Source of the DNA: Moorella humiferrea
GTDB taxonomy: Bacteria; Bacillota; DSM-521; Neomoorellales; Neomoorellaceae
Assembly (NCBI RefSeq): GCF_039233145.1
Contig: NZ_CP136419.1
Location: 842,001-906,000, forward strand
DNA length: 64,000 bases
Reading direction: 5' to 3'
The translations under genes were made by a program, and so were the position numbers. Below are positions 18,874-21,058 of the stretch, in pieces; the first letter of the stretch is position 1; every line of letters begins with the position of its first letter. The notes under the pieces were generated by a model, which was given only the letters and a program-made list of their open reading frames with translations, did no database searches and was not told the DNA's origin.

Positions 18874-19602
18874 ATGGTGCGTTTTATTATAACTATCAGA
18901 TTTAAAATTAAAATGCTGCTTAACGACCTGGCGGCCCAGATCAAGGGGCTGGGGGAAGTATTTTACGTAGGCAGCAGCGAAGCCCTGCCGCCTCCCCTCA
19001 CCAGCGACGAAGAAACGGATTTGCTCCTCAGGCTGGAGGACGGCGATGCCGACGTCAAGACGGTATTAATCGAGCGCAACCTGCGGCTTGTGGTCTACAT
19101 TGCCCGCAAGTTTGAAAATACCGGCGTGGGAATTGAAGACCTGGTTTCCATCGGCACCATCGGCCTTATTAAGGCCGTCAACACCTTCGACCCCAAAAAG
19201 CGCATCAAGCTGGCTACCTATGCTTCCCGCTGTATCGAAAACGAGATTTTGATGTATTTGCGGCGAAACAATAAAACGAAGGCCGAGGTTTCCTTTGACG
19301 AGCCGTTAAATATCGACTGGGACGGTAATGAACTTTTACTCTCCGACGTCCTGGGTACCGACAATGATATCATTTATAAATCCATTGAAGAAGAAATCGA
19401 TCGCAAGCTTTTGCGTATGGCCATGCGGAAACTTTCGGCCAGGGAGCGCAAGATCATGGAATTCCGCTTTGGGCTACTGGACGGCGTGGAAAAGACCCAG
19501 AAGGAGGTGGCCGACATTTTGGGCATCTCCCAGTCCTACATTTCCCGCCTGGAAAAAAGGATCCTTAAAAGATTGCGGAAAGAAATCGCCCGGATGGAGT
19601 AA
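18874..19602 (+). CDS. sigE: RNA polymerase sporulation factor pro-sigma-E
   Basis: Mother-cell-specific sigma factor of the sigma-70 family. Residues 1 to about 28 form the inhibitory pro-sequence, a basic amphipathic stretch ending at '[13 protein letters not shown]', where SpoIIGA is expected to cut. Region 2 ('[19 protein letters not shown]', '[17 protein letters not shown]', '[19 protein letters not shown]') and region 4 ('[20 protein letters not shown]', '[11 protein letters not shown]') are intact. 242 aa, normal. The start follows GGGGGGGAAG. Operon with spoIIGA. Confidence 0.96.
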
Positions 19603-19603
19603 T

Positions 19604-19744
19604 ATGCTTACTGGAGGTGCTGTGTCCCTCGCCGCTCAAAAGTTACGCGCCGACAGAACTACGGCTCGGTTCGGACCGCTGCTCGCCGCCTGCGGATTGC
19701 CAATGATGTTGCTCCTGGTTCCACTTGCTATTATCTTTCTATGA
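19604..19744 (+). CDS. Possible small membrane peptide (46 aa), unrecognised
   Basis: An ATG 1 nt after the sigE stop opens a 46-codon frame: a basic first half, then a hydrophobic end (LPMMLLLVPLAIIFL) that could span a membrane. GGAG at the very end of sigE is 4 nt from the ATG, a short but possible ribosome site. I recognise no family. The frame may simply be chance coding in the spacer before the structured repeat. Confidence 0.22.
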   Translation: MLTGGAVSLAAQKLRADRTTARFGPLLAACGLPMMLLLVPLAIIFL

Positions 19745-19793
19745 GACACTCATGCCACATAATAGCGGCACCAACAGAAGAATGAAAATAACG

Positions 19794-20002
19794 GGCTGGC
19801 ATTTGTTTGGAGCGAGCGACTTGGTCCGAGCGGTTGAACAGCCTTGGCGAAGCCGAAAAGCGAGGGCGGGGCCGAGGACAGGAGGTCCGAGGCCGGCCTT
19901 TGAGGCAAGGATGCCGAATAGGCCGGGAACCCCGCCCGAGCCTGAGGCTGAGCCTTAGGCTGATCCGCGAGGGCCATGGAGCGAGCGAAAACAATGCCAG
20001 CC
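19794..20002. repeat. 209-bp structured inverted-repeat element between sigE and sigG
   Basis: The ends are near-perfect inverted repeats, GGCTGGCATTTGTTT (19794-19808) and AAACAATGCCAGCC (19989-20002), each followed inwards by a direct copy of GGAGCGAGCG (19809-19818, 19978-19987). Inside is a GC-rich nested fold: 8-bp stem GGGCGGGG (19864-19871) with CCCCGCCC (19930-19937); within it a GGAC/GTCC hairpin and a 7-bp stem CCGGCCT (19893-19899) with AGGCCGG (19920-19926) enclosing GGCA/TGCC. Two tandem 11-mers of form AGCCT-N-AGGCT follow (19939-19949, 19951-19961). It encodes no credible protein. It could be a MITE-like repeat or a structured RNA. Confidence 0.7.
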
Positions 20003-20178
20003 TGGAGAGAAGTAATTTTCAGGGTAAAACACCCTTTCTTTCTAAAAAGGGCGCGCTCAGGCGTGCCTTAAGCTGCGGCAGCGGTAACCTCACCTCGCCT
20101 GTTCTGTTCCCGGCGCTCCACTAATCGCGGCTCCGGGACACAGCACCTCCACTTTATCAATAGCAACGAGGTTTTACG

Positions 20179-20206
20179 GGAGCTTAAACGGCTCCTTTTA
20201 TTTTTT
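20179..20206 (+). terminator. Rho-independent terminator upstream of sigG
   Basis: GGAGC (20179-20183) pairs with GCTCC (20191-20195) around a 7-nt loop and is followed by TTTTATTTTTT. It would end transcripts from sigE or the structured element before the sigG promoter. The rest of 20003-20221 shows a weak AGGGT/ACCCT hairpin followed by a T-rich run near 20021-20043 and no gene. Confidence 0.75.
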
Positions 20207-20221
20207 GCCCTTTTACGGGCG

Positions 20222-20251
20222 GTATAAAAGCCGGTAGGCATGGTAATAATT
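20222..20251 (+). promoter_or_regulatory. Putative sigma-F-type promoter of sigG
   Basis: GTATA (20222-20226) fits the sigma-F -35 pattern GYATA, and 15 bp later GGTAATAATT (20242-20251) fits the -10 pattern GGNNANANT. In B. subtilis sigG is first transcribed by sigma-F in the forespore. The site lies 33 nt before the chosen sigG start, and also argues against a start at 20240. Confidence 0.6.
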
Positions 20252-20284
20252 ATCCCAGAGCCACCGTCGGGAGGTTTCTCGCCA

Positions 20285-21058
20285 GTGATGCTTAATAAAG
20301 TAGAGATTTGCGGTGTGAATACCTCCAAGCTACCTTTGCTGACCAGCGAAGAAATGCGGGCCCTTTTTGAGGCCATGCACAGGGGAGAACCGGAGGCCCG
20401 CGAGAAGCTCATCAAAGGCAACCTGCGCCTGGTCTTGAGCGTAATCCAGCGTTTTACCAACCGCGGCGAGTATGTCGACGATCTGTTCCAGGTAGGCTGT
20501 ATCGGGTTAATGAAGGCCATTGACAACTTCGATTTAAGCCAGAACGTCAAGTTTTCTACTTACGCTGTGCCCATGATCATCGGCGAGATACGGCGCTACC
20601 TGCGAGATAACAACCCCATCAGGGTAAGCCGTTCCTTACGGGATATAGCTTACAAGGCCCTGCAGGTGCGGGACGCCCTGGTCAACAAGCTGTCACGGGA
20701 GCCGACGGTGGCGGAAATAGCCAAGGAAATCAATCTACCCCAGGAAGAGGTAATTTTTGCCCTAGATGCCATTCAGGAGCCGGTGTCCCTTTTTGAACCC
20801 ATTTACCACGACGGCGGCGATCCCATTTATGTTATGGATCAAATCGGCGATGACAAAAACCAGGACGGCAGCTGGCTGGAAGGCATCGCCATACGGGAAG
20901 CCCTGAACAAGCTGACACCGCGGGAACGTCTGATATTGTCCCTGCGCTTCTTTGAAGGCAAGACCCAGATGGAGGTTGCCGACGAAATCGGCATTTCCCA
21001 GGCCCAGGTTTCCCGCCTGGAAAAAGCCGCCCTGCAACATATGCGCAAGTATATTTAA
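20285..21058 (+). CDS. sigG: RNA polymerase sporulation sigma factor sigma-G
   Basis: Late forespore sigma factor. The N-terminus 'NKVEICGVNTSKLPLLTSEEM' is the SigG-specific sequence; region 2 contains 'NLRLVLSVIQRFTNRGEYVDDLFQVGCIGLMKAIDNFD' and region 3 'DNNPIRVSRSLRDIAYKALQ'; region 4 ends 'ISQAQVSRLEKAALQHM'. Start chosen: GTG at 20285, 9 nt after GGAGGT (20270-20275); the ATG at 20288 is equally sound and changes one residue. 257 aa, normal. Unlike the usual sigE-sigG neighbours, the two genes are separated by about 680 nt holding the structured repeat and a terminator. Confidence 0.96.
   Translation: MMLNKVEICGVNTSKLPLLTSEEMRALFEAMHRGEPEAREKLIKGNLRLVLSVIQRFTNRGEYVDDLFQVGCIGLMKAIDNFDLSQNVKFSTYAVPMIIGEIRRYLRDNNPIRVSRSLRDIAYKALQVRDALVNKLSREPTVAEIAKEINLPQEEVIFALDAIQEPVSLFEPIYHDGGDPIYVMDQIGDDKNQDGSWLEGIAIREALNKLTPRERLILSLRFFEGKTQMEVADEIGISQAQVSRLEKAALQHMRKYI

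Follow-up and report, generated by a model that had tools for sequence, protein, structure and literature searches.

The question raised by this locus is what has come between sigE and sigG in the window, the stretch of 64,000 nucleotides of Moorella humiferrea DNA analysed here. A first-pass annotation made from the letters of the window had placed a 209-bp element there (element A), with inverted ends and an RNA-like core, and had read it as either a standalone structured RNA or a dispersed repeat. Both readings are borne out, as element A belongs to a dispersed, covarying family of structured RNAs. On balance, it is probably a structure-conserved RNA of a TwoAYGGAY clade whose two GGA hairpins would bind CsrA, either titrating the protein or placing it on the host mRNA.

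Further copies, for which a BLAST search had been proposed, are readily found, and the element is multicopy in its own genome. With a query of 249 bases, BLAST gave 10 matches in the 2.67-Mb genome that span most of the element, along with fragments; a covariance model found one divergent and one deleted copy in addition to nine full-length ones (E < 1e-30). The 15-bp inverted ends and the direct repeat TGGAGCGAGCGA that had been described are present (Table 1). The ends pair at 13 of 15 positions, which also qualifies them as terminal inverted repeats of the MITE kind, and their sequences vary among copies and genera with complementarity kept. These ends exist but do not limit the element to 209 bp, because the conserved unit runs past them on both sides, with an additional outer stem at 19783-19792/20012-20021 and, on the 5' side, sequence starting near 19743. 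This 5' flank (19743-19792) has 96% identity with a copy at 277 kb in genome G000, and the extended unit is missing from uninterrupted copies of repeat B, the second repeat at the junction.

Table 1. Features of the sigE–sigG junction, in window coordinates
Feature	Position	Strand	Remarks
sigE (242 aa)	18874..19602	+	resembles sporulation sigma-E; named by first-pass annotation and position
Repeat B, left part	19612..19746	-	RNA-like strand is minus
Element A, extended unit	19743..20034	+	outer limits approximate
Closing stem P1, 5' arm ("inverted end")	19794..19808	+	
Tandem-G·A helix, 5' strand GGAGCGAGCGA	19808..19819	+	direct repeat; self-complementary with G·A pairs; compensatory changes in GC steps
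Element A, conserved RNA core (model R1, 177 positions), TwoAYGGAY-like	19810..19986	+	R1 207.9 bits, E 6e-43; covariation
8-bp stem closing two-hairpin head	19864..19871 pairs with 19930..19937	+	compensatory changes
Hairpin 1, GGAC-AGGAG-GTCC, CsrA-type GGA loop (candidate site)	19876..19888	+	GGA in 93/102 distinct copies
Hairpin 2: 7-bp lower stem, UUGA/GAAU joint, GGC-AAGGAT-GCC tip (19904-19915)	19893..19926	+	GGA in 102/102
Tandem-G·A helix, 3' strand GGAGCGAGCGA	19977..19988	+	direct repeat; compensatory changes
Closing stem P1, 3' arm	19988..20002	+	
Repeat B, right part	20028..20151	-	
Intrinsic terminator after sigE	20178..20206	+	ancestral to insertions; in sister genomes examined
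sigG (272 aa from upstream ATG)	20240..21058	+	named by first-pass annotation and position

Element A lies inside repeat B (19612-20151), in its variable apical loop. The ends of B, TGGAGGTGCTGTGTCCC and GGGACACAGCACCTCCA, are found at 19612-19628 and 20135-20151, and uninterrupted copies of about 235-250 bases occur elsewhere in the same genome. B folds on the minus strand; 16 of 73 pairs are doubly changed among only seven sequences, and the outer stem covaries. In a sample of 41 genomes B was detected only in the genus, where 10 of 11 genomes carry it, with 8 matches in the genome of the window and 20 in G009. No match was found between B and element A or Rfam.

As had been supposed, sigE and sigG are split by insertion here. 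The junction is empty in four sister species, which carry neither A nor B, and it holds B alone, intact and oriented as in the window, in G003. In G002 and G004 (L151 and L153, compared with L152 and the window), B is inverted in place inside a further structure. Since the sister junctions are empty, G003 has B alone and the window has B plus A, the compared junctions show that B was inserted first and element A later, between the sigE stop codon and its terminator. The terminator that had been noted beside the element is indeed present and is ancestral, following sigE in every sister genome examined. As it lies downstream of both insertions, read-through from sigE would transcribe element A in the folding orientation and B in antisense.

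The fold was examined in two alignments. The first held 29 copies from the same and related genomes, and was used to test a fold derived from the copy in the window; pairing held in 93.3% of cells, and 32 of 52 pairs were changed on both sides, against 16.7 in shuffled alignments, and pairing fell to 45% or less when the partner was slid by one base. The second was made with the covariance model R1, built from copies and applied to 100 loci to give 105 copies, 102 of them distinct. It showed 91.3% of cells paired, compensatory change in 49 of 52 pairs and a covariation score of 0.561, compared with 0.171 in shuffles and no more than 0.098 with the partner slid. Because this alignment was fitted to the model, the independent test of the fold is the 29-copy alignment. 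Fold and loops are shown to be under selection, and chance GC-rich palindromes, to which a single-copy element lacking conserved stems would have been reduced, are ruled out by the covariation: copies are multiple and their stems covary.

In the alignments the fold is a rod whose short helices are connected through GA/GA or GGA/GGA steps, read as tandem G·A pairs; it ends in the 8-bp stem, which opens into two hairpins. The 8-, 7- and 4-bp stems of the first-pass annotation (the latter two at 19893-19899/19920-19926 and 19876-19879/19885-19888) show compensatory changes in homologues far beyond chance. Tandem palindromes were described there as 11-mers; tandem 12-mers do exist at 19938-19961, but they form no hairpins in the conserved fold and are mainly the 3' strands of long-range helices. 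In well-kept pairs G·U outnumbers A·C (107 versus 57), which points to the plus strand of the window as the likely folding strand.

The direct repeat GGAGCGAGCG supplies both sides of a single helix that contains tandem G·A pairs: when GAGCGAGCGA is set antiparallel to a second copy of itself, the GC steps pair in Watson-Crick fashion and the GA steps as G·A. Short forms in G004, G010 and G008 (L066, L067, L068 and L069) consist of the outer arms and a single GAGCGAGC, with no RNA core. They raised the idea that the repeat is a target duplication, or that the core was inserted into a pre-existing hairpin. Both ideas were rejected: in distant genera, whose outer stems are unrelated, the same GAGCGAGCG strands border the core, and they are complementary when G·A pairs are allowed. 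The core-less forms are most simply explained as probable deletions between the direct repeats.

To which family the element belongs was not evident from Rfam, which at permissive thresholds gave nothing credible for the window copy, HEARO included; the TwoAYGGAY model (RF01731) matched neither that copy nor any other place in the genome, even at E 10. TwoAYGGAY, a motif whose name refers to two loops of this kind, came from an RNA screen in 2010 and has since been a candidate RNA class of unknown function (Weinberg 2010, PMC2864571). The connection is made by other genomes. RF01731 scored above its cut-off (gathering score 43 bits) in 5 of 61 genomes and, in G019 and G016, gave matches that were weaker but full-length, at coordinates already found with R1. 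Conversely, R1 matched all RF01731 loci tested, including those above the Rfam cut-off (L227-L231), over their full length and in the same coordinates and register, with E from 1e-24 to 4e-7. Intermediates in G019, G016, G012, G020 and G021 match both models, and members of the R1 family in other genomes reach or approach the RF01731 gathering score. Because both models match the same loci at full length and with the same coordinates, element A is placed in the TwoAYGGAY family, of which it is, as judged from these model matches, a divergent clade that the Rfam model fails to detect.

The defining features agree with this placement. In 102 distinct copies a single closing stem encloses a pair of neighbouring hairpins whose loops read A(Y/N)GGA(Y/N), and the joints in the alignments correspond to the tandem G·A pairs noted in the TwoAYGGAY stem (PMC4333381). 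Element A and TwoAYGGAY share a long closing stem region, the adjacent A(N)GGAN-loop hairpins in the same register and the tandem G·A joints (PMC4333381), and RF01731 is likewise multicopy in some genomes, for example G048 and G051. The clade of the window differs in falling below detection by the RF01731 model, and the Moorella copies differ in their GAGCGAGCGA tandem-G·A base, long outer terminal stems, GC-rich helices and nesting in another repeat. The suggestion that element A might be a HEARO RNA, the omega-RNA of an IscB- or TnpB-type nuclease, appears highly improbable. HEARO RNAs are similar in length (about 200 nt), structured and dispersed, but RF02033 matched neither the element nor the loci of ten further copies nor the genome as a whole (control genomes in one scan were blank too), loops and branching differ, and the relative found instead was RF01731.

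The two loops are near-invariant. GGA is kept in hairpin 1 of 93 and in hairpin 2 of all 102 distinct copies, in the pattern C-A-(N)-GGA-N-G with a closing C-G or occasionally U-G pair, so that the loop usually reads A-(N)-GGA-N. A loop of this kind in a hairpin is the pattern of high-affinity CsrA sites. The two GGA motifs lie 25-29 nt apart, a CsrA-compatible spacing. The stems below the loops covary while the loops persist, and in a distant member in G024 the stems have been rebuilt with the loops unchanged. In a Moorella subgroup (L008, L041, L060 and L012), hairpin 1 is replaced by ACAGCGAGGCCTTCGGCC and its GGA loop is lost. The genome of the window encodes a normal-looking CsrA, MLVLTRRVNETI...VREEL, with LTRR and REEL motifs.

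Titration of CsrA is the best functional reading that we infer from these features. Copies would be transcribed, in the window by same-strand read-through from sigE; the two GGA hairpins would bind both faces of a CsrA dimer; and the bound copies would act by titrating CsrA or by positioning it on the host mRNA. The proposal of CsrA binding is already known for TwoAYGGAY: in 2015 a model of CsrA sites was matched to the family, its tandem GAs were noted and CsrA-binding sRNAs in Clostridia were proposed (PMC4333381). No test of this proposal was found in the open literature searched, where subscription papers are mostly absent. The CsrA-sequestering sRNAs CsrB, CsrC and RsmX/Y/Z, known only from Gammaproteobacteria (PMC4333381), likewise carry paired GGA-loop hairpins, the type of site bound by CsrA dimers, and those of element A are predicted sites of this type. 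They differ in having many hairpins per transcript, whereas element A has two per copy and many genomic copies.

Of 398 genomes taken from the phylum, 78 were found by R1 to carry the family, and csrA (PF02599) was detected in 71 of these 78 carriers compared with 213 of 320 non-carriers. This co-occurrence weakly favours the CsrA reading (naive Fisher p 5.6e-6, with shared ancestry ignored). The seven carriers in which csrA was not detected (G021, G121, G154, G155, G198, G323 and G364) are all fragmented assemblies, and some have csrA-bearing relatives in the same family. G021, the one of these seven whose copies were examined, retains the GGA loops. Counted against the reading are these carriers with no csrA detected, the loss of the hairpin-1 GGA in some Moorella copies, the mixed orientation of copies to genes and an in-place inversion between congeners, the last two described below.

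Element A's clade spans some 34 families of the phylum, the R1 family having one copy per genome in some genera and several in others, with about 10 copies per genome in Moorella. Most scorable copies (83 of 95, oriented with a home-made gene caller) are flanked by tandem genes, to which 51 are co-directional and 32 antisense. Copies also occur between secA and prfB and between atpH and atpA (secA, prfB and atpA being what we take these genes to be from their sequence), close to the downstream start and, in the latter case, just before the ribosome-binding site of atpA. Both sites are empty in sister species. Such positions suggest that copies could act in cis, tuning the stability or translation of the host operon as the 3' part of the sigE mRNA or from a position ahead of the ribosome-binding site of atpA or prfB; the window copy, co-directional with sigE and upstream of its terminator, would suit this. 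We nevertheless consider it improbable, as 32 of the 83 copies are antisense, sites differ between sister species, and tandem neighbours are common in such genomes regardless. The antisense copies specifically disfavour a strictly cis-acting 5' leader. No conserved promoter of the element's own was seen, and within the unit there were two promoter-like matches, both weak and on the minus strand. Given this and the antisense share of about 40%, many copies would not be made by read-through.

The main rival to the RNA reading is a role of the folded strand at the DNA level, in which element A would be non-autonomous mobile DNA, MITE- or REP-like, with a transposase or recombinase recognizing the folded single strand and contacting the GGA loops. 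Like bacterial MITEs and REP- or ERIC-type repeats, the element is short, non-coding, intergenic and polymorphic between relatives, with terminal inverted repeats. It is present or absent at orthologous sites, has entered the apical loop of B, and lies in both orientations to genes (51 versus 32). At a glycerate kinase/S41 peptidase site, moreover, one of four congeners has its single-copy TwoAYGGAY-like element inverted in place (L099:1501-1681 compared with L098:1501-1680, L100 and L110). Even so, this rival seems rather unlikely. No clear target-site duplication was recognized at the junctions inspected, the flanks of the empty sites at sigE–sigG, secA–prfB, atpH–atpA and two more loci being too diverged for an exact call. 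Unlike those repeats, element A has a core that is deeply conserved and covarying, and its two loops hardly vary; 52 pairs and both loops are kept over deep divergence, which is more than known single-stranded-DNA transposon ends need, and the loops fit the site of a known RNA-binding protein. Under the CsrA reading, spread by non-autonomous movement or by recombination at hairpins is likely. A search of the literature on Moorella repeats found nothing relevant.

What is new here is a clade, divergent and widespread, within a candidate RNA family already known, together with its nested, polymorphic and invertible behaviour. A structured RNA family can act as a dispersed, nested, invertible repeat, and the clade makes the CsrA question directly testable, as it offers deep covariation, near-invariant GGA loops and natural presence/absence pairs at sigE–sigG, atpH–atpA and secA–prfB. 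More tentatively, and with some doubt, a mobile RNA family may be spreading paired CsrA-binding hairpins through clostridial genomes. In that case a transposable structured RNA would titrate a global regulator or bring it to new operons, and it would spread in part by in-place inversion and by entering loops of further structured repeats with their structure preserved.

Two observations concern the outer parts of these elements. Copies in G016 and G012 (L071-L077) share long outer ends, CTGAGTTATCCCC...GGGGATACGCCAG, that resemble the terminal repeats of transposons. At the sigE–sigG junction of G010 (L154), helices like the outer ones of element A enclose a different inner part, and similar shells in G002 and G004 seem to hold B, which suggests that apical parts are exchanged between structured repeats.
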